Of a DNA stretch of 64,000 nucleotides, positions 1-24,538 are shown piece after piece. How positions within the stretch are numbered: the stretch's first letter is position 1; every line of letters begins with the position of its first letter. The notes beneath the pieces were generated by a model, which was not told the origin of the DNA, made no database searches, and saw nothing but the letters and a program-made list of their open reading frames with translations. The translations under genes and the position numbers were made by a program. Source of the stretch: Cerioporus squamosus (taxonomy: Eukaryota > Basidiomycota > Agaricomycetes > Polyporales > Polyporaceae). The stretch spans positions 418,301-482,300 of the forward strand of contig JABYQS010000011.1 in NCBI GenBank assembly GCA_022592435.1, in the 5' to 3' direction.

Positions 1-289
1 CTGCGTCTCAATTTCATGCCGATGTCATCTTATCTAATCCTACGCCATATGGTGAACCTTTGCGCACGCCGTGCACTGCTCACCTCACGTCAAATGGCTC
101 TTTCCGAATACCCGACGACTATCGCTCATGGTGCGCTCTCGGTTTGCCGAGTCTGCTGTTTGCTCGCATTGCTTTCTTTCGCTCCCGTTCATCGCCATTT
201 GCTTTGTGCTTGTCCCTGCAGCACTGCAAATCCCCGATGCCGACGTTATAGCCTCCCGCAACACTCGCCGCGCTTCTCCTTCAACCACG

Positions 290-1511
290 ATGGAGCCTTC
301 TGGTAATTCCCCTGCAGAGGTACGAGATTACAGCGACACGAGGAAGTCTGGACACTGACATCTGATCCAGGCTGCTCCCTATCACCATCTTCGTCAGGCC
401 ATGTGGTACCTTGCGGACACGATGGTCACGACACTCAGACTCCTCAAACACCCGCTCGCGTGCTTCATAGCCTTCATGGTATCGGTGTACCTTGTCACAG
501 GCTCTATGACCACTGCCATCGACGCCGTTCAGACCCATATCCTCCCCAGGGTCTGCAGCATTCCTCTCATATCGTCAACCTTCTGTGGCGTGGTCCAGCC
601 TCAGAGCGCAGAACAATCAACCGCTCTCCAACGCGCTGACTTCCCCGGCTTGGCGAAGATTCAAGACATCGCGCTCGATAATTTGCTCGAGAACTCAAGC
701 GGTGGGAACGCGTTGGCGGTGAACGTCAAACATGCCGAACTCGCGGTCAAGGACTTGGTGGTGGCGGTACGGGCCAGCAACCTCACCATCAAGTCTGTGC
801 TCGCGGACGCTCTCGGCAACTTTGCGGCCGATGCGCACAGCGCTGGGCGAGGACTCCAGAGGTTATCAGCGAAGATGCATGTGGCTGTAGACAGGTATGT
901 CTGTGGTTCGTGGTTCGTACCATGTCACGTCTGACTAACGAGCTTGCAGCATTGCTTCTCTGAACACGTACGCACTGCGGACTATCGAAGCAGCCAAAGA
1001 GCGTGGCGCCACGGAGGTCGAAAGAACTGTTCGACGCGCATTCGAGGCCTCTATCGACGGATTATCGTCTCAGCTCACCAGAGTCATCGTCGAAGCGACG
1101 ACGACGATGGTTACCCTTGACCGGTTGGAGGACCGTCTCTTCGAGATCCGTTCGCTCTGCCTGCCGGAAGAACTCCTTACCGAAGTGGAGCTTCACGATC
1201 TCCTTTGGACTATCTGGACCATCCTCGGGACTAACAAGGACCAGCTACGCGACCTCCGCTATCGGGGAGCCGTCTTGAGAGAAGTGGAGCAGTACCGAGC
1301 GGTAGCACTGGCGTACGTCGCCGCCGCGGCCCAAGTACTGCAAGGTCTAGAGGCCGAGCTCTCCGAGCTGCGGGTTAGACTTTATGGACTTGCGGCTGAC
1401 TCAGCAGACATACCCGTCGAGGTTCATCTCGCAAGCATCGAGCGCAGCATCCATCGTTTAGAGACAGGAGTCCAGGTGCGCGGTCATGTGACGGGCGCGG
1501 TACGTGGCTGA
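290..1511 (+). CDS. Hypothetical membrane-anchored helical/coiled-coil protein
   Basis: Three exons, 290-319, 371-894 and 950-1511, give 371 residues in one closed frame. The introns are GTACGA...ATCCAG and GTATGT...TTGCAG. I chose the ATG at 290 because the 30-nt first exon splices in frame onto the long second exon; the ATG at 401 is the alternative start. One hydrophobic segment lies at about residues 37-55 (core ACFIAFMVSVYLV). The rest is predicted soluble, rich in Ala, Leu, Glu and Arg, with heptad-like stretches in the last 150 residues, so I infer a membrane-anchored coiled-coil protein. I recognise no named family. It is the first of six same-strand genes of unknown function (290-10274), and the next gene starts about 300 bp downstream. 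Confidence is good for the gene and low for any role. Confidence 0.72.
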
Positions 1512-1818
1512 GCCTGAGGACTGAGCGCTCCTGAGCTCTGACTCGAGCGGTTGTGCTATCCTCCTCTCCCTCGTCTTACTTTAACTCCATGTAAGTACTA
1601 TCTCGCCCATTCTCGTTCGGTATCGACATTTTACTCTACGCTGTGCCAGTCGTACTCTTAATTCAAGCATGATGTCCTGTCTGCCGCATGGCTGTGACGC
1701 AACCGTGCTGCTTCGTCTCAAGCCCTTTGTACCCTCGTGGTCCTGGGCACTCCCGCATGGCCGTCCCTCTTCACTTCTGCAAACTACATTCCCCTCCTCC
1801 ACTCGCCTCGCCTCGACG
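1512..1818. other. Intergenic spacer, no gene seen
   Basis: Pyrimidine-rich spacer between the first two genes of the left cluster, presumably holding the 3' end of one and the promoter of the next. An in-frame ATG at 1669 lies upstream of the chosen start of the next gene, but the residues it would add look untranslated. No RNA gene or repeat is visible. Confidence 0.4.
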
Positions 1819-3490
1819 ATGCCTCTCAGCATAGAATCGCTCTCCAAGGTCCTGACACCTGAGTCGCTGGAACGGCTCGCAGTGCCACTCTCCGCTCTTC
1901 TGGCCTTCATGTGGCTTGTCTCCCGCCGACGATACGGCGCCACCCCTCGCAGTGGCGTGGCCGCTGCTCCCCTCGCGAACGCTGAAGGACGCAGCACGCA
2001 GTGAGTAGTTCTCCTTTCTCGCGCGCTGAGGATTATTCTGATGTAACTGTTGGCAGGAATCGCAACTCAGTGGGCGAGCAGGAACCCGGCGAAGACGAAG
2101 AAGTCGTGCCTGCCGAGGCGCCCTCTTCTAATTTGCAACCGGTTCAGACGGCAGGGGACCGCGGGTCAGACGGACGGGACCGCGGCCTCCACGAGCGCGA
2201 TCGCGGAGACGGGTTCGCGCGCTGGGCCTCAACGGCGGGTGGCGGGCAAGTCTCTTTCTATAACTTCCCCGCGCCCGGACCTGCGCCTCCATTCCCTCCC
2301 TTACCGATGCCTTCGTACCCCGAACACACTGTTTTTGGCCACCCATCTTACCCGTTTCCTGGGCCCGCCGCCTTTCCCGGGCCCGCCGCCTTCTCTGGCG
2401 CGACCGTCCAAGGCCCTGCTGCCTTCCATCCTCCGCCTGCCCCTCGGGTCCTCGACCGCACTGGAGCCCGCTCGAACCCCGTTCGTGGGATGTCCTTCAA
2501 CACGAAATGGGCGAAGTACAGAGACGTCAATTCCGACGATTCTGACCCTGACTTGCCTTGCAATGCCCCACCTATTCGAGGAGCTGGCTTCAAGGTGGCT
2601 GTCGAGTCCGTTAGCACACTGAAGACCAAGCCTTCCACCTCAAGCCGCCAAGACGCGAAACAGAAGGAGCGCGCCAAAGTCGAGGACTCTGACGGCGAGC
2701 TGAGCGACTCAGAGGCTCTTCCTGCCAAGGCACCATCCCGCGCTCAAACACCGGCGTCGAGCGTGAGGCTCAGCACACGGGCGTCGAGCGTGAGGCTCAG
2801 TGCGACCCCGAGGCGAGCGGCGGTATCCTCCTCGACGGCGGTGTCGAGCTCCCAGCAGCGCTTGTCCACCCCTGTCAAGTCACGGGACGGCTCTGTAGTA
2901 TCCTCCGCTGGTACTGTGATGCCATCTCAAGACATTCCCCCGCCTGATCTTTCCGGATTGTTGGCAAACGAGGTACGTCGGGTCGTCATGATTCACATAT
3001 ATTCAGATGCTTATGTCTTCAAAGGTCTTGCGCCGGTTCCCCCGCGTTACCAATACGAGATCCGCGAAGAAGAACGGTACCGGACCGAAGATCGTCACGG
3101 CCTACTTTGAATGGTCGTCAGACCGCGTGTTGTCTAGCCCTCCCGACCTTCGTGCCCACCCAGAACTCGAAATGGGGGATCTCTTCTTCAACCGCTGCGC
3201 ACTCCAGCTGAAGTATCGGGTCTGGCTGTGGACCGAAGACGGAGGGGCCTGTCAGTGGCTCAGAATATATCGGGGTCACGTCCGGTCCGACGGGCTCTAC
3301 CTGAGCTTGACACCGCGCGGGCTCAACCCCACCTGGGTGCCGGAGAAGCGCTACAGGCAGCGAGAGAGAGAAAGTAAGTCTTCCTTTGCCGCATCGTTTC
3401 CCTCAGATGTTCACAATCGTGGCAGTTCGCGCTCTCGGGAACGCCTCGCCCCTCAAGGAGGAAAGCGAGGTCGAGTCTTCTGACGAATAA
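1819..3490 (+). CDS. Cluster family B protein, copy 1 (membrane segment plus PPDL/DLF domain)
   Basis: Four exons, 1819-2000, 2057-2972, 3025-3373 and 3426-3490, give 503 residues ending in an acidic tail (EVESSDE). There is a short membrane segment at about residues 20-35 (LSALLAFMWLV). A long low-complexity middle follows, rich in Pro, Ser and charged residues, with small internal duplications (FPGPAAF twice, ASSVRLS twice). The C-terminal domain of about 90 residues contains PPDL, MGDLFF, VWLW, a Trp ten residues later, DGLYLSLT and PTWV. The same domain occurs in the genes at 5408-6386 and 6795-8079, with matching intron phases (first intron phase 2, last intron phase 1 just after the domain). 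That shows common descent. I do not recognise the domain. The ATG at 1819 gives a compact N-terminus leading straight into the membrane segment. Function unknown. Confidence 0.75.
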
Positions 3491-3969
3491 GCACAACTGA
3501 CCACGCGGAACGTTGCCTCCAGTGCTCCATAGATGTAAATCGTGTTTTGCAATGACTTCTGTCCTCTCAAGTATCTATCTCAGTTCCCAAAATGTATCCT
3601 CCTGTATCACCGCAATGATTACGCCGTTATTGACCCAACCGCACTGAAGAGTAAGAGCCTCCCGAGAAGGGAGGCACCCTGGAACGTCCGGGCGGCGCTC
3701 GGCAGCGGGCACGCTTGAGCGCTTTGCTCTGCTCTGCTTCGCTTCCAACCACCTCCTCCCGCTTCGCTCTCTATCACGTCGCCTCCGTTGGCTTCGCTAC
3801 ATCCCACTATGCTCGGGAAGTCGCTTATCTCAACATCCCTGGTACGACGCAATGCTCGAAGGCCGGCGATTGCCACGGACCAGAACAAAGCAGTTTGTAC
3901 CACCCAGGCCTTCTTACGGTGGCTGGCTTTACGCCACCCATATCACCTTACCCTTCCAATCGTCAAGCC
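3491..3969. other. Intergenic spacer, no gene seen
   Basis: About 480 bp between two cluster genes. It contains pyrimidine-rich, CTTCGCT-like short repeats near 3716-3800 that resemble the low-complexity DNA around 14450-15280. No coding sequence is supported. Confidence 0.35.
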
Positions 3970-5241
3970 ATGTCCTTCAGCGGCTCGACGGATGCTGCTC
4001 TGGCAGCTGAGCTCCTACAGACGTATATCCAGGGTATGGTGGAGGAAAGCCGAGATAAGCTGGAACGGTGCGTTGATCCCACTCTGTTCTGTGTTGCTTG
4101 CCACTGACCAGCGCAAACAGCGTGCTCCTGCTGAAGTCGGGTACAATTCTGAAATTGGCGACCATATCGCAGCAGGTCAGAGACTCTTTCGGGAAGGTCA
4201 GCTTGCAGCAAAAGCGGAAGACCGCCTCCTTGCTTCGGAGCGAGGCGGCTTATTACAGGAGCCGCCGCGAGAAGTCGAAGACGGCTATCATTGGTCAAAT
4301 ACGGGATATGTATGGTGACACCGACCTATCGCTTCGGGATGTGCGTCGTTTTCTCTACGGCATACACACGCCCCTGACTTCCTTACCGCAGGTGCAGGAT
4401 TACTACGGTCGCTGGTCATGGTTGCTCCCCGTGGAGACTCGTGCGGACATCGACGCACGACTCACCAGCCTCAAGACCTCGCAAGGCTACCTCAAGAGGA
4501 TGGAGGACACAGTGTGCATGTTCTTCGATGGGTATGGCGATGCACTGTCCATACTAGGGTTACCAAAGGTACCGTCACAGTCTTCTGGATCACGCATCCC
4601 CGTTAATCCGACGTCTCAGGACGAATTCGTGCAAGCAACGGAGTCGCTGCTGTATCCCAGCTCTACTGTGACCCACATGCGTTCCGCCGAACCCCATATC
4701 GACACACTCCGCGCTGCCTGGATCGCGGACGACGCTGCCCTCCAGCGTGTTTCTGATGTGTTGGTCCAGGCGCGCCGCGAGATGCGGTATGACGCCGCGG
4801 TGGCTGAACTCGTGAAGATCAAGGAGGACGTGGATACGACCGCCTTGCGGTTCCACGTGGCCGTTGACGGCATCAAGGTGAGCACACTTCCCGTATGTCG
4901 TCAACTTGCCGAACTCAGTGCTGTAACCAGGCGATATCGATGAGTATAGATGGTCCCTCTACACTGACCTCTGCGACGTTCCTGAATGGGCGAACGATCT
5001 CGGTGCAGAAGCTGCTGTGCGCGCGCACACGGTTCAACGGAATCCTCGACTGTATCGAGGGTTGTCGTAAGGTGGGCCGGCATCTCACGGCTTGGGTAGC
5101 GTGGGTGCGAGTATTAACCCTACCTCCGACTCCCAGGATGTAAAGGTGTTCTGTAGGACTGCTCAGATCCTCCTGGAGACGATACAGGATGCAGTCCGCA
5201 ATGCTCAGCCCGTCAGAGCTCCCGAAGTCGCTTCGGCGTGA
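3970..5241 (+). CDS. Hypothetical helical (coiled-coil) protein of the left cluster
   Basis: Exons 3970-4067, 4121-4340, 4392-4877, 4931-5071 and 5137-5241 give 349 residues. The second intron (4341-4391, GTGCGT...CCGCAG with a CTGAC branch site) is optional, since it is 51 nt and open in frame; retaining it gives 366 residues. The protein is predicted almost entirely helical, with charged heptad-like stretches such as LQQKRKTASLLRSEAAYYR and RVSDVLVQARREM. There is no signal peptide or convincing membrane span. I recognise no family. It sits between two family B membrane-domain genes and has the same orientation, the nearer one only about 170 bp downstream. The alternation of helical proteins with family B proteins across 290-10274 suggests, but does not show, that they work together. 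Confidence 0.72.
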
Positions 5242-5407
5242 CTGATGCCATAACGCGCCGGGCGTGATGGTCCATTTCCTTTGTATCATTGTTATCAATC
5301 CATGCTCTCGTCCCCTCCTCCACGTGTGAACGACGCGTACATTCTCTTTGTAACAATATTGCTATAGAGGTGAGCACTACCGCTTTCCCCCCTTCCCCTC
5401 GTCGACC

Positions 5408-6386
5408 ATGTTCACCTTCGAGTTCTACTTGATCTGCCTCGCCTTTGCAGGCTACGTGTTGCTCTCCCATCGCTGGGCAGTCGTAGCGCCACCAGCTCGT
5501 CGTCGGCCAAGGCAAGGTGTTCCACGTCCACCCGCTGCGCGCGGTGGTGGCGCACAACCTCCTGTCGTGGCGCCGCGACGTCGGGTCGTTCGTCCTTCAG
5601 CGGTTTCTATCAATGACCATGTAGAAATCCTCGAGATTAACCCGTACGTTGCAAAGTTGCTCTGCTAGAGTTCGAACTTACACTGCATTGTTCGCAGTCC
5701 TGCTCGCGCTCTCCCGGCTACACGTTCAGGCCCACGCCCACCATCTCCGGGTGTCTTTGCGTTGCGCCCCTCGGTCCTCGGTCATTCCGCTCCGCTTCCT
5801 TCCGCTCCACTTCCTTCTGCCTCCATTCCCTCCGCTCTCCACGCCCCTGCTCCTGGTCGCTCTGTCGCATCCCCCGCCGCCATCTCGCGGCACCCCACAG
5901 AAGAGCTTGACCCAGAACTTCCTGTTCCCTCCCCAGATCGAGCGGCGAACCACGCGTGTGCGGAAGCAGCTCCCTTGTATAATTCACCAATTCGTTGGCG
6001 AGAGCGGAGAGTTGGAGGTAACACCTTCTACTGGGAACCCGAGAAGTTCGCTCTGCAACTCATTCAAACACCACCCGACCTCACGGGAGACCCGAAGTTG
6101 GCCCTGGGCGACCTCTTCTTCTTCCAGACATTGACGAGGTACAAGTTCTGGATCTGGACCTTGGACGACTCAGAAAAAGCCTATTGGAAGGCGATCCGAT
6201 ACGGATTCCAACGTGAAGACGGGCGCCGGCTTATCGTCACTCCCGCCCAGCGGAAGCCTGGCTGGGTGAAGCAGGAGCGGTGGTCTCAGCTTTCGCATGG
6301 TAAGCCTGCTACGCTGTTATATCGGCGTACTCTAACACTTCGTCACAGAGTTGAGGCTGCTCGATGCGTACGGAGAGGTCTGGTAG
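5408..6386 (+). CDS. Cluster family B protein, copy 2 (membrane segment plus PPDL/DLF domain)
   Basis: Three exons, 5408-5643, 5698-6299 and 6349-6386, give 291 residues ending DAYGEVW. The start codon leads at once into a membrane segment (FYLICLAFAGYVLL, residues 5-18), then a Pro/Arg/Ala-rich linker with SAPLPSA-type repeats. The C-terminal domain carries TPPDL, LGDLFFF, FWIWTLDD, the conserved Trp of AYWKAI, EDGRRLIVT and KPGWV. The order and spacing of these motifs match the paralogues at 1819-3490 and 6795-8079. First (phase 2) and last (phase 1) intron phases also match, while the middle intron of the other two copies is absent here. A type I or tail-in membrane anchor with an intracellular domain is possible; orientation cannot be read. 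Function unknown. Confidence 0.74.
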
Positions 6387-6433
6387 AACTCCTCCGTGAC
6401 GTCGTCGCAACGCGAGCTCAACTCCCTTTCATT

Positions 6434-6560
6434 GGCATTCAACTGCCCTCTTGCATCACCGGAGCGGTCTAACGCTTCGACGCTGGCATTCAACTGCCCT
6501 CTCGCATCACCGGAGCGTAGCATGGTCTAACGCTTCGTAACTGGCATTCAACTGCCTTGC
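6434..6560. repeat. Imperfect tandem repeat, about 2.5 copies of a 51-58 nt unit
   Basis: Units begin at 6434, 6485 and 6543, each with GGCATTCAACTGCC. The first two continue through a GCATCACCGGAGCG core and a GGTCTAACGCTTCG end; the third is cut short. The repeat lies just after the stop codon of the preceding gene, in a 408-bp spacer (6387-6794) that otherwise shows no gene. Confidence 0.7.
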
Positions 6561-6794
6561 TATTCGCATCAGGCCACGAACAATAGTATCGGCTTATCAT
6601 AGTGTGTATCACGAGGTTAACGAATGTCATTGATTGAGCTTATAACGCGTCGTTGACGGAGGTGGTCGGATAGCCCAACCGGGACACATTCCGGACAAAG
6701 CTGCGTCTCGGACAAAGATCATGATACTTTGTCGCCCTCAGAGGCGAGCTCGAAGCGGCCCTCCTTCGCTCCTCTCCACTCGACGTTACTCTGC

Positions 6795-8079
6795 ATGACT
6801 GACACCCTGCTTGCGCTCCTCATTTGCATCGTTGCTCTGTGTCTGGCCCTGGCCTTCAAGGTCTTGCAATGGGTCTACGGCACAGCCTCTCCGAATACCG
6901 TGCGGAGGACACAGACGCTGACTTACACGTACTCCGCTACTGCGACAGTTCAGTCGCAGCACCCGACTTATCTGCCCTTCCCCGCACCACCCCTGCCTCG
7001 TCGCAACCCTGCTGCAAAACCCACCATCTTGAAAGATTTTACAAATGAATTGCATGACGTCGGGTTCAGGTACTTATGTTTTCGAGCGGCGAATATGTAT
7101 GAGCCACTGACATCGTTCTCTTAGAGCTGTTCGAGACGCCATGTCCGAACGAGCTACTGGCAGAGAAGTCCAGACGGGCCGGAACCGCTCCGCTCTGCGC
7201 ATCCAGATGGCTCCTGGCGGGGTTGCGAACGACTGCGACCACCATGCCTCAAATGACAACCAGGAGGAAATCGCCGTGCCTGGGAAAGGCAAAATGCGTG
7301 CCGTGAGTCCCCTCGCAGGTTCAACCCACCACAATATATCGCCGCCCCCGGTGGCTCGCTCCCCACCCCCGGCGGCTCGCTCTACGCCCCCGCCAGAGCC
7401 CACTAGAAGTGAACGAACTACCTGCGAAGACCGCCCGTGGACGAACGAAATCAATGAGCCTGAAGCTGGCCCTTCAAACAACCACGACCTGGACTGGTCG
7501 CGTAGCTCATCGCCCTTGACTGAGCTCTCCTCGGAGGGCGAGTCGGACACCGAAGCGTCGAGGCCAGCCGGACAGGGAATGACGCAGAAAGCGTTGCTCC
7601 GGGTCAACTCCTCTATCGATGTGCGTTTCCTCCTTCCGCATCTATGTGCATAGGCCTGAACGTCATATGCAGCCAACTGACTATCTCGAGAGAAAGGACC
7701 AGAAGCAGTCGGCATCTGAAGGGCGACTCACGGTGTACTGGTTTGAAACCAAATCCTCGACGCCTATTCACCGCCCTCCCGACCTTTCACGGCGTCGCGA
7801 TCTCGCGGAAGAAGACCTGTTCCTCCACAGGCATGGTGACACCGAGACGCAGTTCTGGATATGGATTACTGAACCTGGCCGAGCTTCCCGTTGAAAGAAA
7901 ATCAAGGAAGGTTATAGACGTCCGTCGGATGGACGGTACTTGTCCTTGACGGAGACGCACAAGAAGCCGTCTTGGCTGGTAGCCGGATGGTTCAAGACAC
8001 GCGAGAGGCAGAGTAAGTCAAATCTTGCTGTTGTACAGGACGATTGCTGACTTGCCATCCCGGAGCAGATCGCCTGTGA
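6795..8079 (+). pseudogene. Cluster family B protein, copy 3, with TGA in place of the conserved Trp codon
   Basis: Four exons, 6795-7069, 7125-7620, 7673-8012 and 8069-8079, give 373 codons with one internal stop, TGA at 7892-7894 (codon 331). A long N-terminal membrane segment (LLALLICIVALCLALAF) is followed by a Pro/Ser linker containing three PPP-x-x-AR-type repeats. The PPDL, EEDLF and FWIW motifs follow. The stop falls exactly where the two paralogues have Trp, so TGG to TGA is the simplest explanation. Downstream of it the same frame still encodes the rest of the domain (DGRYLSLT, KPSWLV) and a correctly placed phase-1 intron. Either the copy died very recently, or it makes a truncated protein, or the base is an error. 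No intron could remove the stop. Confidence 0.65.
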
Positions 8080-8472
8080 AGTACACCGATGTCTCTCGCT
8101 CCCCTCACCACATGTCGCTCTGCTCCTCGTCCGTTCCATCCACACTGCTTTGCACCGCACTGCGGCTCCGACCTCACATATATGCACATATTGTTCCCAT
8201 GTCTCTCTCCTCCATGTCTCTCTCCGTTAGTTGTCTGCTTCTTACTTCGTACCGATCTCTACTATGATGTATACTTAGTCTCTAGTTGACCTAGAATCGA
8301 GGTTATGACTCACGTGATGCATCCTTGGCAGCGCCGAACGCAAGCGCCTTGTCCCTATGTCTTCGCTTGTGCCCACCACACAAATGTCGCTATACTCTCC
8401 AATAATCGCGATGCAACTCCACAACCTCTCGTCGCGCCCAGAGACGCGTCTCTCCCCCGTACCACCACCACG
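8080..8472. other. Intergenic spacer, no gene seen
   Basis: Spacer of about 390 bp between the third family B copy and the next coiled-coil gene. An ATG at 8305 is in frame with the next gene but gives an implausible N-terminus. Nothing else was recognised. Confidence 0.35.
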
Positions 8473-10274
8473 ATGAACTCGCCAAGCGCTACACAGAGCG
8501 ATGAGCACCGACCGCACGACGCGCATTCTTCCTGCGACTCCCCCAGCTTCGATCAGGACTACGGGATCCAAAGCCAAAACTCAACCATCTCAGGGAGTGC
8601 TTCGTCGGCTTCCCTCAGGCATCTTAGAGATGCACTGTCGCCAATGGGTTTCGACCAGCTGTTGCGGATGCAGTAAGTGCTTCATTTGCCGTCCATGACA
8701 TGGTGATCCCTAACTTTGGCCAGGACGATCGATTTTTGTCACGTCGATCACAAATATCTGGAGGAAGAGTTCTCTGATGCCATTCGGGAGATGGAGCGGG
8801 TGGAATCGTTTACTGGGGCTCTGTTTAGGGCCTTCCTCGAGATCAAACGGACTCAGGTACGCATGTCAGCTACTTCATAGCACCTGCATGTCACATCGCT
8901 CTCCAGACGACCCACAATGACCGCGTCGTGCGAGTAGAGCAGGAGATCAGCCAAGTACGAGCTGAAATACAAGAACTCATGCGACCGCTCAGAGCTTCAT
9001 ATGTCTCTGCCGAAGGTGAGCATCCGCATACTGGCGTGTGTGTGAGTACTCACTGTTGAGAGCCACAGCTGAGTTGCGTCAGGAGAAGAAGGGTATCGAG
9101 TCTCTGAAGGCTCAGTATGCCGACCGCATGGACACGATTGAAACTTCTCTACACAAGGCTGAGCTGAACGTAACGGTCTTGCGGTCACAGTGGGCCACAA
9201 ATCGCAAGGATCTCGATCAACTGGGTGAGCAGCTCCTGCCTACACAAGAATTGGCACACTCTCTTGCCGCTCGACTGTTGGATATGGAACAATGGGAGGA
9301 GGGCGTCTGGAGTATGCTGAAGGATCTGCGTGAGGATGTCTATGAGCTCAGGCAGCCGGACGTAACAGATTTGGGTGACTCTGACGGTGAGTTATTCACT
9401 CGGCGGCCTGTCGCACGTAGGCCAGTTACTATATTGACTCGAATGTAGAACCCAACTCTCTTGCTGCTGAGTTCGCTGCTGGTACAGCACCAACGTACAC
9501 AATGCCAACCGCACCCACTCGGTCCAATGATGGATGGTACTACAACGAGTGCGAACAAGGCTCGGACTCGTCCGTGAGTATCGCCGACACTGCCATTCGT
9601 CTCAGACTGACGAAGAACAGATGCCGAGCACCGATATCTTCGGAGAATCCAGTGATGAGGTTAGGACGCCCGGCAAGGAGACATTGGACGGTAGCGACGG
9701 TTCGAATGGGCCTGAAGAAGAGACGGTAGGGTTGTACAACGAGACGGGAGGGTACTACGACGAGACCAGAGGGTCTGACGACGAGTTCACCGACCACGCT
9801 GCGCACGCCGATGGCGAGCCCAGAGGTGGAGAATTCGATTGCGAGTCAGTCCCGGGAGTCGTCGTGTCCTCACTTACAACCGGCTCTCCTCCACCTGCCT
9901 CGTTGAGGCGGCCCAGCGAGCGTGACAGTTCACCTACAGAACTTCCGGCCGACGCGACGGCGACTCGATCCTCGGACGATGTCGGCAGCAACTGCGCACG
10001 AGTACCCGCCGGACTCAATTGGCGGGCTTTCATCAGGTTCAACCTCGGCGACAATCGACTTCTACGAGTGGGCGAGGGCATCTACGACGGCATTGTCTAC
10101 TTGCATGCCATCCATCCCACATTGCCATATGTCTCACCCGTCGTGTTGTTGGGGGTTATCCGAGTCCTCGTACATCTCTTACCTCGCTGGTCTCTCGACG
10201 TCGACGTGCCTCCCCCCTCCCCTCCTTCCGAGCATCCCGTTTGGGAATGGGCGTTGCAGCGGACCTCATCCTGA
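8473..10274 (+). CDS. Hypothetical coiled-coil protein with acidic linker and hydrophobic C-terminus
   Basis: Six exons, 8473-8672, 8724-8856, 8907-9015, 9069-9386, 9449-9573 and 9621-10274, give 512 residues in a closed frame. All introns are 47-62 nt with normal borders. Residues about 70-300 form a strong coiled-coil prediction (for example VEQEISQVRAEIQELM and QEKKGIESLKAQYADRM). An acidic, Ser/Thr/Gly-rich low-complexity region follows. The last 80 residues contain two hydrophobic stretches (around IVYLHAIHPTLPYV and VVLLGVIRVLVHLL) that could be membrane-embedded. No named domain was recognised. It closes the cluster of six unknown genes. Its stop is only 153 bp from the transposase start, so its 3' flank may have been disturbed by insertion. 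Confidence 0.74.
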
Positions 10275-10427
10275 TGTGCTGGACGGGTTGTTGTGTTCCG
10301 GCAAATATGATATCTCTTCGCCATGTATGTCTACATCATCGATTACTCAGCAATGCCTTGATCACCCGTTCCTATCGATCCCAGTGTGCGCTCGTCCTCT
10401 CCCGCCCTTCAATCGCTCCTCCATGAC

Positions 10428-13400
10428 ATGCGGCCCAAGCTCCTGTGTACGTGCAAGAAATGCCGCCGGCAGGTCTGCGTCTACGAAGGAGAAGAGGTTC
10501 AGGGACGGCTCGTTGTCTCAAGAACACGAAACAAGCACCTTACGAGGGATGAAGTGCGGGAAGATCTTGATGATGAGCAAGTAGAGGAGGCCATGTCGAG
10601 CACCATCCTCCTGAGCGCGGGTGCTCAACCTCTCTCGCGTCAAGGTTCAGGAACCCTCCCAATTCGGCGCACAGATTCGGGGCGTGCATGGGATGGGATG
10701 GCGGGCGATGATGACGATAGCAGTGTAAGTCCAACATGGCTGTCGTCTTTCACGACCAACTCACGTCTCTCAGGATTCTACGAGCGACGACGAAGATGTC
10801 CCCTCACATGGATCCGGGGTTGGGAGTAAAGTGCGTATTCGCGCTCACCGCGGTGGAGTGCGTGACACGACTGACCGCCTTACAGACCGCGCCGAGTTAT
10901 GTCGAGGCCGCCCAATTCGCCGCCACCGTAGCCGTACGGGAGCGGGTGTTGGGAGACATCAACAGCAATATGGACAGACTCACCCGCACCATCCCGAGAG
11001 ACTTCAAGCTCACGTTCCCGGTCCGTCCTCAAACACTTGCTGATCCGGCGCCGGAGCCGAGGGAGACGAGCTTCATCGGTGTGTACAACTGGCTTTGGGA
11101 TAACTGGCGGTACATCCAGAATGAGCTGGCGCCCATCGGTCACCACGACATGGACCAGCGTCGCTTGAGCCTGTTGCGTCAGTTGAGAGAGGAGACCACC
11201 CGGATGGACAAACTGAAAGCGCGGGCTTGGAGCAAGTGCGTCGTGGAGCATCTTGTCCGGTCGGAGCTTGGTCCAGACCGCGGACCCGAGAGCTACTCGA
11301 TCGGTGCGTTCACTCCAACATCGCATTTACTGCTCGATACTGAGAACGTGTACGTTCCAGATATCACCAAATGGCAATATGCGAGGTCGCTCGAATATTT
11401 TATACTGGCCGCCATGGTCATGACCACCGTGCTTCATTCGCTCACCGCGACATCGCGAACCCAGAGTTCATACGTCTTGACCACCATCCAAGCCGTCTTG
11501 TTTGGAGCGTTCGCTTGGTGCAACACTCACCTATCCCACCCTCAGCCTCTCACTCCTGGCCAAACTGCCTTGCTGAACAAGATTCCCGACGACGTCAGGG
11601 AGGCGATCAAGGCCCTCGGCCTTGAACCGGACTTCATTCGCCACGCTTGCTGCCCAGACTGTTTCGCGACTTACGCTCCCAGTACCTCCAAGTCCCGTCG
11701 GGACGATCCCTATCCACGTACATGCACCTACAAGGAGACTGACAAGCCCGTCTGCGGTGCTCCTCTCGTCTACAGGCAGGAGCACGTCCCAAAGCGCAAG
11801 GGGGACCAGGCTCGTGTCACGTACAATCCGCTCCTCGTGTATCCCTACCGTCCCATCCGCTCTTGGATTGGCGATATGCTGCAACGTTGTGGGATGCCGC
11901 AAACGATGAGGGGTGCTTGGAAAGCTCCTCGTCGCCCTCGGTGGACTGACATCTTCCAAGCACCGGCAATACAGAACTTCTTAGGCCCCGATGGCAAGAC
12001 ACCCTTCTCGCACCAGCCCGGCCCCGCCGTCCACCTTGTCTTCAGTCTCTTCATTGATTGGTTCAATCCCTTCGGCAACAAGAAAGCAGGCAAATCGCAG
12101 TCGGTCGGTGCGATATTCCTGATCTGCCTAAACCTCCCAGACGACATCCGCTACAAACCCGAGAACATCTGCCTCGTTTCGATCATCCCGGGGCCGAAGG
12201 AGCCGGAAACGTACCAGCTGAACCATCTCCTGCGGCCCCTCATCGACGAGTTGCTTATTCTGTGGAATCGCGGAGTCCTCTACAAGCTGGACAAGGTCTC
12301 CTACGTGGTTCGCGCCGCCGTCATCCCCCTCGTCTGCGACCTGCCTGCCTTGCGGAAAGCTGCGGGCTTCGCCGGCCACAAGTCTCATCACTTCTGCTCG
12401 TTCTGTCGGCTCCAGAGGAAGTCCATCAACGAGCTCGATCGATCGAAATGGCAACGTCGTACGTGGGAAGAGCATCTCCACTATGCTGCCCAGTGGCGAG
12501 ATGCCCCTACGGAGGCTGCTCGTGACGACGTCTTCAAGGCTCACGGGTTGCGCTGGAGCGAACTGTTGCGACTTCCGTATTGGGATCCTACCCAGTTCGC
12601 TGTAGTCGACGCCATGCACAACCTATTTCTTGGCGAACTTCGGCATCACTGTCGCGAGGTCTGGGGAATTGACGTCAAAGATAAGAGCAGCGACTCCACG
12701 AAGACTACCCCCCATACTCCCGAACAGCAGCGCGTACAACTCCTCAAAGTTTTCAATGCGCTGCGCAGCAAATCGGAGTCGGCGTTCAACAAGATCCGGA
12801 AAGGCTATGTCGTTGCCGTAGCTGAGGTGAACGGCATACTGCCTCACCCTGGGAATTACACGAAGGCTGCATATCGCGATGCTTTACTCGCATGGGTGCG
12901 CCGCATATCTTCCTGGACCGGTTACCATTTACTCACATACTGATTGTCTAGGTGAACTCTGGCGTGCATGCAGCCATCCAATTGCCGCCCGTTCTCGAAG
13001 AGTCAACGACTGAATTCCACGTCGCCAAAGGTCCACACGACATCTCCAAGTACCGTGTCCTGGATCAGGCCACTATGGACGCAATCCGCGCCGATATCCG
13101 CGCGACGTACTTCCCTTCCTGGATGGAGCGACCGCCGAAGAACTTTGGTAGCCCCTCTCATGGGAAGTTGAAGGCAGATCAGTGGAGAACCGTCTGCACC
13201 GTGAGCCTTACAATCTCTCTATGCCGTCTGTGGGGTGGAGCGAACGCATTGGATAAGCACCGACTACTCCTCGACAACTTCATTGCCCTTGTCTGTGCTG
13301 TTGACCTTGCCACTCGACGTTCAATGGACCCCTCGCGCGCGGATCGATTCGACCGATACATGCTCCACTATCTCGACACGCTTCGATGCTTGTTCGGGCA

Positions 13401-14406
13401 CCAGCTGGTTCCCAACCACCATCTCTCCCTGCATCTCCGAGAGTGCCTCCTGTTATTCGGCCCTGTGCATGCCTGGTGGGCTTTCCCTTTCGAACGCTAC
13501 AACGGGCTCCTGCAGAATCTGAACACGAACAACAAATCTGGTATAGTTTCACTGTTAGTGCGCAGAGTTGATTTCTGATAACGTTTGACAGATAAAATGC
13601 CCATCACCTTCCTCCGATACTTCTACATCGGAGGAACTCTTCGGTGGCTCGTAAGTTCGACGAAGTGGCCTACATCCCCGTACTTCCGCAAGATGATCGA
13701 CGCGTTCAAGAACGCCATGATGAGCACGAGGAAGTCTAGTGGCGTCCAGGCCGCAGACTTCTTACCATTCGGTAGTTCGCCGGATGTACAGTTCGACGCA
13801 CCCGTCTACGATGAGGATAAGGAGACCAAACTGCCGCGTCCAACATATGAAGCTCTTCTCGCCGTCGTCTCGTCAGACGCCGCTCTGTTCGCGTCTGTCC
13901 ACGAACAACTGCCAGGCGACGCACCGATCCTGAACGACACTGTGAACTACGTACGCAACGTTAACCGCGACGGTATCAAGTTCGCCAGCCGTCGTGGCGG
14001 CCTGCGCGACTCCTTCGTCCTCTTCAGGGACCCTTCGCGACCGCAGGATGACTCCTTCCCATCCGCAGGTCAGATCTCGGACATCTTCCTCCACGGAAGA
14101 CAGGTGGGCGGCGAACTGATCGTGGAGCCCTTCATTGTAATCGACGAGTACAAGTCTCTGCACGATAGTCATGCCACCATGGACCCATACCGCAAGTTCC
14201 CGGACATCAACACCCGCTTGTTCTACAGCGACTTCTATCTCACGCAACGAGTCATCAGGTTGAAGGACATCATCAGTCACTTCGCAGCGCTCTTCTGCTC
14301 CATTGAGGGGATCGACAGAGAGTGTGTTGTGGCGCGATCACTCGACAGGGTAAGCAAACCTCAGTCAATCGTGCGCACCAGGTTACTGACTCTGCGTTAG
14401 GATTGA
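10428..14406 (+). mobile_element. Transposase of the Tnp2 / Plavaka type (CACTA-like DNA transposon)
   Basis: Six exons, 10428-10724, 10774-10830, 10886-12895, 12952-13540, 13592-14349 and 14401-14406, give 1238 residues with no stop or frameshift. The last exon supplies one codon and the stop. Family marks are an N-terminal Cys pair (CTCKKC), a zinc-binding-like CCPDC...VCGAP region and SLFIDWFNPFGNKKAGK. Further marks are IIPGPKEPE, the Cys motif HHFCSFCRL, DAMHNLFLG, and a C-terminal ECVVARSLDR. These occur in agaricomycete transposases related to Tnp2 (Transposase_21), which I know from the family rather than a search. Conserved Asp residues in the FIDWFNP and DAMHN motifs probably belong to the catalytic triad. 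A 57-nt in-frame intron at 11304-11360 is possible. Terminal repeats and target-site duplications were not identified. Confidence 0.85.
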
Positions 14407-14956
14407 ACCGGCCACCATTCACCGTCACTGTCATGTATGCCCCGAGCCACACACCTTCGCTTCGCCTTCGCCTCGCCTTCGCCCCGCTCCCCTGTGTAAC
14501 GCTTCCTTCTGCACCACTCACCACCGTTCCACTCTGTCGCTGCGTACAGTGAAATCTATGCGACTAGGACCCCCCCCCCCTTCACACTCTCGTCCGTTCC
14601 GGAATCTTATCGGCGCGTCGCATCGCGAGCCTATCATCGTCTCCTCTATCGTCATCGGAGACGAGTGCTCTGATCTCGCCCGAAGTCACTCTGTTTTCGC
14701 GTTGGCGCGAGCTGTTCAAGTTGACTCTCATCCACGCAAAAGAATATGCCGCTCACGACTCCTTCACCCGCGCTCCTCCTCCATTCCTTCCCCGTCTACT
14801 TGGCTTCGCTTCTGTCTTCGAATCGCAGCACACCTGCGCTCACGTTTGCTCTTCAACACACTTACTACACTCAACTTTGCTATTCGACCCCCGGGTTCCT
14901 GCGCTTGGCTTGGCTTTGCCTTCGCGTCATTGCTGAAGGTTATGCGCTCTTCGTAT
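14407..14956. other. Low-complexity pyrimidine-rich non-coding stretch
   Basis: Dense CTTCGCC/CTCCTT-type sequence after the transposase gene, with a C11 run at 14570-14580. Several frames stay open only because the composition avoids stops, and none looks like a protein. It may be part of the transposon's 3' non-coding arm. Confidence 0.4.
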
Positions 14957-15275
14957 GTCCACTACACTCCTTGCGTACTTAGCTTTGCTTCGAATTCCCT
15001 CCGCTACAGCTTCCTCCACTCCTAGTTGCTTTTTCTTCGTACGTCCACTTCACTCCTCGCGTACTCAGCTTTGCTTCGAGTTCCCTCCGCTCCATCTTCT
15101 TCCACTCCTAGTTGCTACTCTCTTCGCATGTCGACTTCACTCCTCGCGTACTCAGCTTTGCTTCGAGTTCCCTCCGCCACAGCTTGCTCCACTCCCAGTT
15201 GCTACCTTCTTCGCATGTCCACTTCAATTTTGCCTTACTCAGCTTTGCTTCGCGATTCTCTCCGTCACAGCGTCT
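14957..15275. repeat. Minisatellite, about 3.7 copies of an 86-87 nt unit
   Basis: Copies start at 14957, 15043, 15130 and 15217, each with GTCSACTWCAMT-like sequence. They continue through CGTACTCAGCTTTGCTTCG, a TTCCCTCCG block and CCACTCCTAGTTGCT. Copies 2 and 3 are the most alike; copy 4 is partial and diverged. It is pyrimidine-rich on the plus strand. Confidence 0.8.
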
Positions 15276-15479
15276 GGCCTGATCTGGATTCCAGCGCGAC
15301 GCTATACTTCGCTTGACTTTTCGCTCTACAGCTCTCGCATTCATCAAGTTTACTTACTCCCCTTCTCTGCATAAGGTGCTTGCGTACTACTCCTTCTATC
15401 AGTCTGCTCTTCTTTGCCCTATGTAACCGGGTGCTCGATATCCCCGCATTGATGGCATTTATGTAGGCTAAAGCTACGG

Positions 15480-15900
15480 GACTCTAAGCTATCGTTGTGG
15501 ACGGGACAACAAGCGAGATGGCGGGGTTTCCCGTCGACCGCATTTCGGACCGTCCGAAATGCGGCGGAGCAGCAGCCTGTTGTGCCCTTTTTGGCCGGTC
15601 CGAAAGGAAACCCCGCGGCACGTGCCCAAGGTTACCTTTTGTCCCGTCCGAAATGCGACCAAATTTGGAGTCGCTCCTTTCAGACCATCCAAAGGGCGTT
15701 CGGAAGCCGTCCGACAAGCCGTCCGATTGGTTGCCGACAGGCACTCCGGCAGCTTAGCTGTTGTCCGGTCTGATTTATGTCTGGCACACGCGCCTCATGG
15801 AGACCCTCCGGACCGGACAAAATTGGGCCGAAAGGAGTCGGGTGAGTAACCTCGTGACGCCGTTATGCGGCCAATTTCAGACCGACCGAAATGCGGGTAT
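15480..15900. repeat. Clustered palindromic TCCGAAATGCG motifs (subterminal-repeat-like)
   Basis: A perfect inverted repeat sits at 15538-15564, with arms of 13 nt (CCGCATTTCGGAC and its complement) around one C. Further direct or near copies of GTCCGAAATGCG occur at about 15645 and 15888, and weaker GGTCCGAAAGG or GGCCGAAAGG forms at about 15595 and 15828. Many GGAC/GTCC half-sites lie between. Dense short motifs in both orientations are typical of CACTA-transposon subterminal regions, so this may mark the 3' end of the element encoded at 10428-14406. That link is inference. Confidence 0.55.
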
Positions 15901-16194
15901 GCCTGCCGTGCACCCGCCCGCGGCTTCCAAGTATTCTGCGTTCGCATGTCCGCCACCCTAACACCTCTGCCGTCCCAGGCTTCCCGTCCAACTTCCACCC
16001 GTCAGTCCCGCAGGCTACTTTCAGACGTCAATCAGAGTTCCCGAGCTCCTCGCCCGGCTGTACATGTCGCTGCGCATGTCGTATTATACTTACACATACA
16101 TTACTAGATCCGCTGGCACTGATTAGTCCTCGTGAACCATGCTTCCTGCATACCTAGGTATGCCGTCGCCGCCGAACCAAACGCCGCGCCGACT
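15901..16194. other. Intergenic, no gene seen
   Basis: Spacer between the repeat block and the 3' end of the minus-strand pantothenate kinase gene. It presumably includes that gene's 3' untranslated region. Nothing else was recognised. Confidence 0.3.
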
Positions 16195-18337
16195 TCAGCT
16201 TTCCGACTCCTGTCCCTCGCCGATGTTCTTTATCCAAGCCCCAATTGCTCCTCTGCAACGCCGGTACGGAACGCAGGCACAGGCATGGGCGCCCCGGTGA
16301 AGTTGCACGGACAAGCACATGCAGATCAGCACACGGCTCGCCAGACGCTAATCCCGGACCACAAAACACTCACAGGAATCCTTCGTGCCGGAGGAACAGC
16401 GCGCGTTTCGTGCCCTTGCTCCAGAACCTGATAGCGTACGACAGCGTGCTGATCGTCGCCGCATGACCTGCCACATCCAAATTCCAGGGATCCCTGGTTA
16501 GCGACCCGCCCAGCACTCGCCGTCGACGTCTGCGGCGCGACACAAGTGACGTACCCCGAATGAAGTATCCACCAAAGTATATCCGGTCCAAGTTGTACTT
16601 TTCCGCGTTCATGTATCTGCAAAGGTGATCGGCGCGGTAGTTAGCCTATCTGCTGTCCCTGGACCTGGCGTGGACGCCACCAGCCAGAGGCTAGCGGCAC
16701 CGAGAACAGCCGCGGCAAATGCACACGGGCGGAATGGAGGCAGGGAGAGCTAGCACGTACGCAATTTGCCCAATGTTGTTCGAGATCGCATACAGCAGCG
16801 ACTTTGCGATGTCCTCAGGCGTGAACGTCCCCCGCTTGCCGCCCTGCTTCTTGAACACCTTCCCAAACGTACTCGCGATCATCGTCGACTTCAGCCCGAG
16901 TTTGGAGTAGTCTGACCCGTAAATGTCACCGACGAGCATGTCCACCGTCTCGTTGTTACCTTTCTCGGACAGCGCGAGCATCTCTGCATTCCAGTGAGCG
17001 GGCGAACGCTGTGCCACCACATGTAAGCGACGTACCGTCGAAGGTCGTTGCAGGTGTCAGCATGCTCAGAAGACCCCACAGCGTCCCTCCTCCCAGACTG
17101 GTCCCGCTCACACGCTCGAACGACCCGTCCTCATCCACCTTGACAATTGACACGCCCGAGCCGATGTTCACGAGCAAGCACGGGAGCTGCGGCACAGGAT
17201 CCTGCACGAACGTCACCGCGTACTTTGGCGGGTCCGGACTCGGCCTCTCCAGCGGCGGGGGCTGTTGGTGGGGATGCGAGACCGAGTGGATGAGCTCGTC
17301 CGAGAAGTAGTAAACCTCGTCCGGGATGAGCGTGATGAACTTCAGGCCCTCGATGAGGCATGCCATCTCATCTTCGCGGTGCACCTCGACCTTCACCTCC
17401 TCCGCGAGCAGGTCGAAGAACCGGTGCGCGCCGCCGCCCGTCGCGATGATCTTCACCCCCCGCCGCATCTCCTCGAGCGGGACCCCGTTGACCTCGGCCG
17501 ACCGCTCGATCAGGGCGCGGATGAAGGCCAGGCAGTCCTCGATGTGCTCCGTCTCGAAACGCTCGAAGTTCAGGGAGCCGCCGGGGAAATGCTGCACGGA
17601 AGCGCGGCGCAGGAGCGAGTCGTGCAGACGGGATGGGTTGACCGACTCTGGGGAGAGCGAAGCGGTCGCAGTACCGTTCAGGGTGGAGGACGCGGATGCA
17701 GCAGTAGTTTCTAGGGCGTCGCGCGGGACTGCGTCGACGTAGCTACTGTGCCCATTGCAATGCTCGAGCACGGAAGGGGTCAGCGCACCCTTGTTGATCC
17801 CGCTGATACCATTGGCCTTCGCTGAAGGTGAGGATATCGGGCTGTCCCGTGTCGGTGACGATGATAGAGGGGTGAAAATGTTGCTTGGTGACGATCCGCG
17901 TGTCGCGATTTGGGAAGGGGAGGATGGAGGGTTCGTCGATCGCGTAAAATAGATAACTTTTGCTAGTGATCCGCCAATCTGAAAGCGCAGTTTGTCTCCT
18001 CAGCACGAAGGACGCAATGTCACGCGAGAGGAAGCAGGACAACGCACGTCAACGGCGATGTGTGACACGGGCTCGATGTAGTTGGGAAAGTAGATACCGC
18101 GACTATCGCGCGTCTTCTCGCGTCAACCGCGGGAAGCAGGGAGATCCACGCAGCAGCGAAGGGAAGGCAGGGCGGATCGGGAGAGGGTGCACATGCGGGA
18201 GAACTTGAGAAGGAGGTCTCCTGACTTGGGTGCACGGATGGACGTACCTCGGGCGACTCCTCGTCCAGTATCATTGCCCCGCGCGTATCGACCTGGATGG
18301 TCTTCGCGGTGGGCAGCGACGGTCCTGCAGCGGCCAT
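16195..18337 (-). CDS. CAB1: Pantothenate kinase (eukaryotic type II)
   Basis: Seven exons read from the right: 18337-18248, 18116-18048, 17978-17036, 16983-16761, 16616-16555, 16467-16374 and 16252-16195. They give 512 residues. The enzyme phosphorylates pantothenate, the first and controlling step of cytosolic CoA synthesis. Visible family motifs, in order: HIAVDIGGSLAKVIYF (phosphate-binding start of the ASKHA fold), IIATGGGAHRF, LVNIGSGVSIVKV, GTSLGGGTLWGL, VDMLVGDIYGSDYSKLGLK, NNIGQIAY, RIYFGGYFIRG and FWSKGTKRALFLRHEGFLGAIGAW. The frame closes only with these splice sites and reconstructs every motif. A Ser/Thr-rich insert at about residues 65-150 is typical of fungal homologues. The first intron (131 nt) is long and its acceptor could be three bases away. 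The identification is secure. Confidence 0.93.
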
Positions 18338-24000: not shown

Positions 24001-24538
24001 GGAGTGTGTACTTCTGGCGCATAAAGTCGTCGGGGTCGCACGTCGCGGCGGTGTAGCGGAGCTTGGTCATCTCCTCGGTCTTGTCCATGCTCTTCGGGAC
24101 GATGTGCGTCGGGACGTCCATGTCGAGCACGAGGTTGCCCTGCTGCAGCTCGACCTGGCGCACCGAACGCCGCTTCATGAGCTTCTCGCGCGCGACGGAG
24201 TAGCCGCTGCTCTGCTGCTGCATCATGCCCGGCCGTTGCTGGGGCGGGTAGTTGCCAGCAGGGGGTCCCTGGTATGGCATAGTGGGCATCGGGGGGACGG
24301 AGACTTGGCTCATCTCGTAGGGGTTGAGGTGCGCCTGGGAGCCGGCATAGCTGCTCTGGTAGGACTTGGTGGACTTCGTCTCCCAGTTCGACTGGTTGTC
24401 AAAAGAGTAGTCGTGCTGCTGGCGCTGCTGCTGGGGCGCAGCCTGCTGGCCAGAGTAGCCGTAGTTAGGAGCGTTGTTCGCGGGCGGGTAATCGGGGAAC
24501 GAGTTCGCATAGGGATCGTGTTGCTGGTGATAAGCCAT
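21039..24538 (-). CDS. Chitin synthase, division 1 (class I-III type)
   Basis: Seventeen exons read from the right (24538-23910, 23847-23706, 23653-23583, 23529-23422, 23368-23322, 23268-23206, 23153-23114, 23056-22984, 22918-22732, 22673-22601, 22552-22504, 22454-22248, 22186-21909, 21850-21705, 21646-21632, 21578-21170, 21108-21039). They join in a single frame of 868 residues. The enzyme polymerises UDP-GlcNAc into chitin at the plasma membrane. Order of parts: a Gln/Tyr/Pro-rich N-terminus (about 110 residues), [11 protein letters not shown] at the start of the catalytic domain, [16 protein letters not shown], the [10 protein letters not shown] and [11 protein letters not shown] motifs, and QRRRWLNGS (acceptor/processivity site). 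At least six C-terminal membrane segments end in LRLVGF. Exon 15 is only 15 nt. The frame closes exactly, so the model is well supported. Confidence 0.93.

Follow-up and report, generated by a model that had tools for sequence, protein, structure and literature searches.

Six adjacent genes of Cerioporus squamosus belong to the cargo of a CACTA/EnSpm-type transposon, a large element with multiple genes that inserted as one unit. They lie in a 64,000-nucleotide stretch of DNA (the window). The transposon also carries a SUN-domain gene of the type known from the nuclear envelope, suggesting that the element supplies machinery of its own there.

Six genes carried by a CACTA/EnSpm-type transposon

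The gene models confirm the initial annotation of a six-gene cluster: all genes are on the plus strand and contain introns, their order is helical, B, helical, B, B, helical, and the spacers measure 166-479 bp. The features of this part of the window are as follows.

1..15910, + strand: right 58% of the 27,279 bp transposon; terminal inverted repeat at both ends, CAC/CAC duplication, empty allele on C456
290..1511, + strand: g1, helical; conserved Cys pair and, at the N-terminus, a putative transmembrane segment; exons 290-319, 371-894, 950-1511
1819..3490, + strand: g2 (B1); exons 1819-2000, 2057-2972, 3007-3373, 3426-3490; B domain ~3037-3372
3970..5241, + strand: g3, helical; exons 3970-4067, 4121-4877, 4931-5071, 5137-5241
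5408..6386, + strand: g4 (B2), with a putative N-terminal membrane anchor; exons 5408-5643, 5698-6299, 6349-6386; B domain ~5978-6298
6795..~8017 (3' end approximate), + strand: g5 (B3); exons 6795-7069, 7125-7620, 7673-~8017; in-frame TGA in the B domain
8473..10274, + strand: g6, coiled-coil; hydrophobic stretch at the C-terminus, followed by a short tail rich in Pro; exons 8473-8672, 8724-8856, 8907-9015, 9069-9386, 9449-9573, 9621-10274
10736..14400, + strand: transposase region; open blocks 10736-12943, 12952-13578, 13585-14400, exon limits approximate
15847..15910, no strand: right terminal inverted repeat, 64 bp, a 100% match to the left end; outermost bases CACGGCAGGCATACCCGC
15911..15913, no strand: target-site duplication CAC; the same CAC stands directly before the left end

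The complete element (G000:C13:406932-434210) spans 27,279 bp, contains all six genes among about a dozen, and has its left 11,369 bp outside the window. Its 64 bp inverted repeats are 100% identical between left and right. Further, the same assembly holds an empty allele of the insertion (C456:6264-6541), which matches the C13 flanks, joined with a single copy of CAC, over 278 of 278 nt at 98% identity. The cluster had been read as a product of tandem duplication in the host; the exact ends, the target duplication, the empty allele and a transposase frame beginning ~0.5 kb downstream of the six genes identify it as transposon cargo instead.

Block 10736-12943 of the transposase region matches Transposase_21 (Tnp2, PF02992) with an E value of 1e-17 and a score of 64.5 bits, well over the cut-off of 28.6. 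The Plavaka model (E 0.084) and the DUF4218 match in block 12952-13578 both stay under their cut-offs. Homologues of the transposase are present in the C212, C27, C568, C131, C39, C48, C110 and C822 stretches, and both ends were seen in five elements including that of C13. All five begin with CAC (CACTA/CACTG and the like): C13 and C212 with CACGGCAGG..., C48 with CACGACGGG..., C822 with CACTACGTG... and C27 with CACTGCAAG... Four of the five are flanked by a 3 bp duplication (CAC at C13, TCA at C212, TAA at C48 and TTG at C822), which is absent from C27. The C48 (35,321 bp) and C822 (26,109 bp) elements were detected by a scan for terminal inverted repeats plus duplication; the same scan of the available sequence found no element ends at C39, C131, C568 or C110. 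The joined flanks of C48 have seven full-length matches elsewhere, which are repeat copies (best 99%), and a search of the genome for an empty site of the C212 element found none.

Products of the six genes

The g4 model equals NCBI protein C8T65DRAFT_736261 (291 aa) at 100% identity over 100% of its length, and splice sites are largely, though not wholly, conserved in the C212 copy, which is ~80% identical in DNA. As the initial annotation had stated, there is no named domain: a Pfam scan of whole g1, g3, g6 and B2 and of the B1 domain gave no family reaching its cut-off. On the basis of sequence comparison and predicted models, no known fold or family can be assigned to either the B or the helical genes.

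The B proteins have in common a C-terminal domain of ~100 residues, in which B1 and B2 are 35% identical. Thus, of the three membrane-domain paralogues proposed earlier, the common domain is found in all three, but the membrane part is a short N-terminal anchor outside it. A strict Met-hydrophobic-basic anchor pattern is present in 8 of 18 stretches upstream of B domains, compared with 1 of 18 antisense stretches and 8.4% of 2000 random ones; it is missing from the other 10, the window's B1 among them. Of the 12 stretches that lie on contigs other than C13 and C212, 5 have it. An in-frame TGA lies inside the B domain of g5/B3, making this probably a damaged copy; the C212 counterpart has no such stop. 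We rejected B as a known domain, there being no Pfam match above cut-off and no PDB match below E 0.27 for a predicted model of poor quality (pLDDT 62, four sequences). A word-based database search returned only 3 proteins, two of them from C. squamosus itself, although such a search is weak for B homology and this number does not show B to be rare. Within the genome, the B1 domain finds 20 matches, itself included. The C212 copies are 31-39% identical to the window's non-corresponding B proteins. Each B gene of the window has its own counterpart in the C212 element, so the B genes had already been duplicated when the two 27 kb elements diverged.

The g1 protein matches 20 database proteins, three from C. 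squamosus and others from Ganoderma, Trametes, Lentinus, Fomes and further genera, listed mostly as hypothetical proteins; it is not matched in C27 or C48. Its predicted structure is a five-helix bundle (pLDDT 77). The putative membrane segment of g1 rests on the present gene model, the C212 copy and those homologues that have it, and the NCBI model begins downstream of it. The bundle weakly resembles pore-forming ClyA-type proteins, but the matches are not significant (best E 0.01, with designed bundles scoring equally), and this assignment was rejected. Similarly, g3 as a paralogue of g1 is unsupported (0.1% probability against the g1 family); its sole other match in the genome is the C212 copy, which is broken by six stops. 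Both g3 and g6 are outside the wider cargo set of the more distant elements. KASH luminal peptides typically end in PPPX, according to the available part of PMC6034078. We rejected g6 as a KASH protein: its hydrophobic stretch, at 1.86, is only marginal and is interrupted by an Arg, and the tails read ...QRTSS and ...QRTQS. No PPPX tail was recognised by eye in a three-frame translation near the C39 relative.

Related elements, selection and the SUN gene

The second 27 kb element, on C212, has the same gene order as that on C13, and the more distant elements keep a smaller gene set. Between C13 and C212, omega is 0.07-0.35 in 15 of 18 compared segments at a dS of mostly 0.4-0.6. The B2 domain has an omega of 0.12. 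Of the other three segments, two have a higher omega of 0.45, namely g3, whose C212 copy contains the six stops, and a B3 piece 36 codons long; the third transposase block gave no usable value, its mapped piece being out of frame with 6 stops. Most cargo segments thus appear, from these sequence comparisons, to be under purifying selection.

Parts of the cargo set recur beside transposases of only ~50% identity. Within the C. squamosus genome 17 of the 20 B matches lie within 30 kb of a PF02992 match, on 9 of 12 contigs; C241, included among the 12, is a 99.9% copy of the C48 stretch. A simple binomial, with the query's own contig and C241 counted in, puts the chance of this at ~2e-9. Homologues scattered singly, which the initial annotation had named as the contrary outcome, are therefore not what this genome holds.

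Beyond the edge of the window, the left arm of the C13 element carries several more genes, among them one for a SUN-domain protein and one for a WD40 protein. The SUN protein (open frame of 299 aa) matches Sad1_UNC (E 9.2e-18, 65 bits against a Pfam cut-off of 22) as well as SUN1 and SUN2 structures, including SUN1 chain 6r15_A at E 7e-15 in two stretches, which take in the tCLYRfRvHGEP-like end. Hydropathy predicts a transmembrane segment ahead of the SUN domain: the profile peaks at residue 46 with a value of 2.64, and the best Pfam stretch starts at residue 135. B and SUN are inside one element in C13, C212 and C27, and 1.2-1.4 kb apart in C257, C822, C48, C110 and C241, the copy of C48, giving four independent cases of such neighbours. 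The order WD40-g1-B-SUN is the same in C110 and C822, where the WD40 query may match any WD40 gene. By our own grouping of matches the genome has 19 SUN loci, some of them haplotype copies, and 11 of the 19 have no B match within 20 kb; few SUN loci would be expected here. B and Tnp2 are present without a SUN match in C39, C131 and C568, the last of which ends at a contig end and the first two of which belong to the elements whose ends were not found.

Possible roles of the cargo and known systems

The best explanation, which we hold with moderate confidence, is that the transposon's cargo builds a SUN-based assembly at the nuclear envelope. The SUN protein would be embedded in the inner nuclear membrane, its SUN domain projecting into the perinuclear space. 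The single membrane pass of g1 and the adjoining Cys pair would place its helical bundle on the SUN-domain side, and one N-terminal pass followed by basic residues would leave the B domain facing the nucleoplasm or cytoplasm on a long flexible linker, with the WD40 and coiled-coil proteins peripheral. Less surely, the assembly might tether transposon DNA or transposase to the envelope, and the element might gain from being positioned at the spindle pole or at the periphery, or from travelling with the nuclei of the dikaryon. Linked inheritance, conserved order, mostly purifying selection and several putative membrane anchors support in part the membrane-linked complex proposed earlier.

Transposons often capture genes, and the cargo, SUN included, could consist of captured host genes that are passive passengers, the six genes doing nothing for the element. 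The breaks of g3 in C212 and of B3 in C13 agree with this, as do SUN genes away from B; we nevertheless consider it unlikely, given the low omega in most segments at the observed dS and the recurrence of parts of the set with divergent transposases. Still less likely is a selfish trait acting on host nuclei, by which carrier nuclei would be favoured in migration, pairing or meiosis of the dikaryon via the host SUN-KASH-motor system. According to the available text of PMC6034078, SUN proteins couple nuclei with the cytoskeleton, and in the basidiomycete Cryptococcus premitotic migration of nuclei becomes irregular when Sad1 is lost. This role would fit, as would the presence of the element at one site and its absence from a 98% identical counterpart, but the ORFs examined include no motor-binding or KASH protein.

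A mobile nonself-recognition or defence system is improbable. It could draw on duplicated membrane-anchored proteins adjoining helical ones, on WD40 repeats, which also occur in fungal NLR-type proteins, and on the likeness of g1 to ClyA-type bundles, were that likeness significant. Purifying selection in most segments argues against it, and the scanned proteins contain no NACHT, TIR-type, HET or HeLo-type domain, the marks of fungal nonself-recognition (NLR/HET-type) clusters; nothing seen points to the recognition system that the initial annotation had offered. Adjacency alone would suggest a host gene cluster merely adjoining a transposon, which we regard as scarcely credible: the empty allele contradicts it, and the ends, the target duplication and the presence of related sets within other elements whose two ends were identified all stand against it.

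Returning to the nuclear-envelope assembly, we propose only tentatively that these elements form a class of DNA transposon encoding its own nuclear-envelope complex (SUN with anchored B and g1), which possibly favours the element or its carrier nuclei in the binucleate cells of mushrooms. DNA transposons are usually viewed as needing a transposase and little else. If a CACTA element does retain a SUN gene and linked, putatively anchored genes by purifying selection, and does so in several lineages within a single genome, cut-and-paste transposons may operate by way of the nuclear envelope, and exploitation of nuclear position or movement by mobile DNA would become directly testable in a mushroom. 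Transposon-borne SUN may also explain part of the high number of SUN loci in C. squamosus, and transposon cargo may turn out to be where unnamed families such as g1 belong.

In its CAC...GTG ends, 3 bp target duplications and Transposase_21, the C13 element is like CACTA/EnSpm (CMC) transposons. Kojima 2025 classes fungal elements as EnSpm by such termini and duplications and names catalytic acidic residues and a C(2)C...H(3-4)H motif as further marks (PMC12730594, in part), and fungal CACTA-type elements with Transposase_21 were reported in 2006 (PMC1636069, in part). According to the available portion of a 2019 review, 1-2 ORFs are the usual number, and elements of 16-20 kb with 4-5 ORFs in a red alga count as significantly enlarged (PMC6431247). 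The present elements differ in their 26-35 kb and, for C13, in having about a dozen genes. SUN or membrane cargo is not mentioned for CACTA/EnSpm in the available parts of these three sources, and full-text searches of the open literature listed no SUN-carrying transposon. Auxiliary cargo as such has a parallel in the TET/JBP dioxygenase genes carried by several lineages of fungal DNA transposons, including EnSpm; these genes have been suggested to help evade silencing based on methylation (PMC12730594, available text). There the cargo is one enzyme acting on DNA marks, whereas that of C13 is a set of putative membrane proteins. Unlike the SUN proteins of LINC complexes (Sad1, SUN1/2), the C13 SUN protein is short and encoded by a mobile element. 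Starships are giant cargo-carrying elements, and Starships, Terminons and Helitrons use other transposition enzymes. Terminons and Helitrons are described as large cargo-carrying eukaryotic elements in the same portion of the review (PMC6431247). The C13 element resembles all three in its size and cargo, and differs from them in having Transposase_21 with terminal inverted repeats.

The six genes within a transposon

The six consecutive plus-strand genes proposed in the initial annotation are present, and they sit in a transposon, a CACTA/EnSpm-type element whose left arm lies outside the window.

Genes of the window (exon models by GT-AG splicing rules)
290-1511, plus strand, g1, helical protein
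1819-3490, plus strand, B1, B-domain protein
3970-5241, plus strand, g3, helical protein
5408-6386, plus strand, B2, B-domain protein
6795 to about 8017, plus strand, B3, B-domain protein
8473-10274, plus strand, g6, helical protein

The B2 model is identical to a protein recorded at NCBI for Cerioporus squamosus (Polyporaceae), and the B3 domain is interrupted by a TGA in the window copy. A Pfam scan of g1, g3, g6, B2, and the B1 domain assigned no family at its cut-off. Open frames directly 3' of g6 encode Transposase_21 (PF02992; E 1e-17).

Comparison of the window's contig, C13, with C212, the contig of the second-best B locus, shows similarity breaking off at a fixed right-hand point; the common right end reads ...GCGGGTATGCCTGCCGTG, after which the contigs diverge. 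The terminal 18 bases, CACGGCAGGCATACCCGC, are found without mismatch and inverted relative to each other at C13:406932 and C13:434210, and likewise at C212:65000 and C212:92258, giving element lengths of 27,279 bp and 27,259 bp. Genome-wide, this pattern is found exactly at 9 places and, when up to two mismatches are allowed, at 43, versus 6 for a reversed control. The C13 element (window -11368 to 15910) is flanked by CAC/CAC and the C212 element by TCA/TCA target duplications, and the C13 inverted repeat spans 64 bp with no mismatches. Further, C456:6264-6541 matches a junction of the two C13 flanks carrying a single CAC over all 278 nt (98%) and represents an element-free allele or copy. 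The joined C212 flanks gave no empty site.

The left arm carries further cargo, followed after L5 by the six window genes and then the transposase.

Left-arm cargo (positions within the element; open frames rather than complete gene models)
about 1367-2023, minus strand, L1, no Pfam match over cut-off
2742-3299, minus strand, L2, no Pfam match over cut-off
3038-5041, minus strand, repetitive Q/E-rich frame, no match over cut-off (HC2, E 0.0006, below it)
6068-6964, minus strand, SUN-domain protein (Sad1_UNC, E 9.2e-18)
from about 7063, plus strand, WD40 gene (E 1.2e-12)
9089-9706, minus strand, L5, no Pfam match over cut-off

Structure-chain matches show that the SUN frame resembles SUN1 and SUN2; two alignments to SUN1 chains cover two stretches, including the C-terminal end, which in SUN1/SUN2 takes part in KASH binding.

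Beyond the element, window positions 15914-64000 hold ordinary host genes, with Pfam matches for 6 of the 10 frames scanned.

Host genes beside the element (window coordinates; Pfam)
16956-17771, minus strand, Fumble family
23666-24796, minus strand, chitin synthase N-terminal
27085-28044, plus strand, protein kinase
30771-31844, plus strand, adaptin-N/HEAT protein
56758-57480, minus strand, NIPA magnesium transporter
61340-62026, plus strand, multicopper oxidase

Two unnamed host frames, at 19662-20444 and 33497-34240, look alike by eye; a Pfam scan of the former at 1e-5 matched nothing.

Related elements and their recurring cargo

The genome contains 20 B-domain matches on 12 contigs and 54 PF02992 matches, 48 of them exceeding the curated cut-off. 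PF02992 lies within 30 kb of 17 of the 20 B matches, on 9 of the 12 contigs; a simple binomial puts the by-contig chance at 1.9e-9, counting contigs that are not all independent, because the query's own contig is included and C241 is a 99.9% copy of a C48 stretch (4,000 bases compared). SUN gave 36 exon-level matches in 19 loci, among which C241 repeats C48, and C56/C626 and C591/C357 appear copy-like from their equal scores. B lies within 20 kb of 8 of these loci and is absent from that range at 11, and PF02992 lies within 30 kb of 6. Loci with neither at these distances are on C56, C626, C591, C357, C679, C51, C472, C246, C588, and C235 (two); those on C588 and C235 share their contig with an L1 match. 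Some of these loci may be the host's own and some further cargo.

Five of the seven contigs matching g1 (C13, C212, C110, C822, and C257) also carry B and SUN; C116 and C26 do not. L1 has 13 matches over 12 contigs, eight of which also carry SUN (C13, C212, C27, C822, C110, C48, C588, and C235), C588 and C235 doing so without a B match. Relatives of g6 occur only on C212 and C39, and of g3 only on C212.

CAC-type inverted repeats bordered by 3-bp duplications were sought in C13 (first 40 kb of its stretch), C212, C48, C568, C27, C39, C131, and parts of C110 and C822. C13 and C212 each yielded one pair, the known ends, and C48 one (33132-68452; 35,321 bp; TAA duplication), with none in C27, C39, C131, or the scanned parts of C110 and C822. 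A weak C568 pair (17/40 bases matching) was taken as chance. The C48 inverted repeats (1,968 bp, 99.4% identity) far exceed in length the 64-bp pair bounding the window's element. Seven element-free places match the joined C48 flanks in full length, with a top identity of 99% over 317 nt; this target recurs on C175 at 50, 11731, 23399, and 35119, a spacing of about 11.7 kb that resembles a tandem array of large units. A laxer scan of more DNA, also admitting 2-bp duplications, gave an element at C822:4775-30883 (26,109 bp, TTG, 34/40 bases), chosen over five weaker pairs (at most 20/40 bases) and enclosing all genes found there. In C27, repeats reading CACTGCAAGCGC... lie near 19041 and 48737, with no matching target duplication.

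C110 and C822 share the order transposase (opposite strand), WD40, g1, B, SUN. C27 reads SUN, WD40, B, B, transposase and is otherwise like C13, the genome search with g1 giving no match there. C48 has SUN, B, and WD40 on one strand and transposase and L1 on the other. From these orders and the co-occurrence across contigs, the recurring set is therefore transposase, L1, SUN, B, and WD40 (the least specific of the cargo matches), plus g1 in some; g3 and g6 are extras of C13-type elements. By eye, C110:45119-45997 and C822:13498-14193 (both minus strand) hold a similar open frame between transposase and WD40, with no counterpart noticed in the window's element.

Constraint and predicted topology of the cargo

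C212 has all six window genes in the same order, at about 80% DNA identity to C13 over aligned bases. Pairwise Nei-Gojobori omega, a ratio gauging selection, was compared for 18 segments, 17 yielding a value: g1, 0.15; B1 front, 0.26, and domain, 0.22; B2, 0.26 (domain only, 0.12); B3 front, 0.35, and domain pieces, 0.26 and 0.45; g6, 0.27; g3, 0.45, with six stops in the C212 copy; two transposase blocks, 0.12 and 0.07; SUN, 0.19; L1, 0.17; L2, 0.24; L5, 0.28; and a WD40 piece, 0.17. Because 15 of the 17 values fall within 0.07-0.35, most of the cargo is under constraint, close to or weaker than that acting on the transposase.

Hydropathy maxima (19-residue means) are 2.90 for B3, 2.64 for SUN, 1.89 for B2, 1.87 for g1, 1.86 for the g6 C terminus, 1.54 for B1, and 1.05 for g3. 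A strict anchor rule (Met, hydrophobic stretch, then basic residues), applied upstream of 18 of the 20 B domains, was satisfied at 8 of 18; the opposite strand satisfied it at 1 of 18, and random stretches drawn from the window's host DNA (2000 in all) at 8.4%. Excluding the C13 and C212 copies, the rule held for 5 of 12. Basic residues mark the cytoplasmic or nucleoplasmic side of a membrane pass (the positive-inside rule); here they follow the predicted pass, which suggests a cytoplasmic or nucleoplasmic position for the B domain. The g1 family has two nearly invariant cysteines right behind its hydrophobic stretch, a pair that would suit the luminal side.

The predicted B structure (pLDDT 62, four sequences) is mainly strands and matched nothing in the PDB below E 0.27. 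That of g1 (pLDDT 77, twenty sequences; NCBI model, without the membrane segment) has five long helices, with designed bundles and ClyA as best PDB matches (E at least 0.01). Neither predicted model names a function.

A possible nuclear-envelope role

From gene content, a nuclear-envelope function is inferred. The SUN protein would be sited in the inner nuclear membrane with g1 alongside, and B proteins would extend to chromatin or cytoplasm; any gain through position or movement would go to the element itself or to nuclei carrying it. In the basidiomycete Cryptococcus, one study describes delayed kinetochore clustering and irregular premitotic nuclear migration upon loss of the SUN protein Sad1 (PMC6034078). 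Work on the mushroom Marasmius describes fresh insertions of transposons in monokaryons and none in dikaryotic growth, the active families named in the available text being mainly hAT, not CACTA (PMC9674265). Because those insertions were confined to monokaryons, nuclear state may, by analogy, be relevant to mobile DNA in such fungi.

Among the open full-text matches listed, no title or abstract start reported a SUN-carrying transposon; the transposon type of the window's element is already known.
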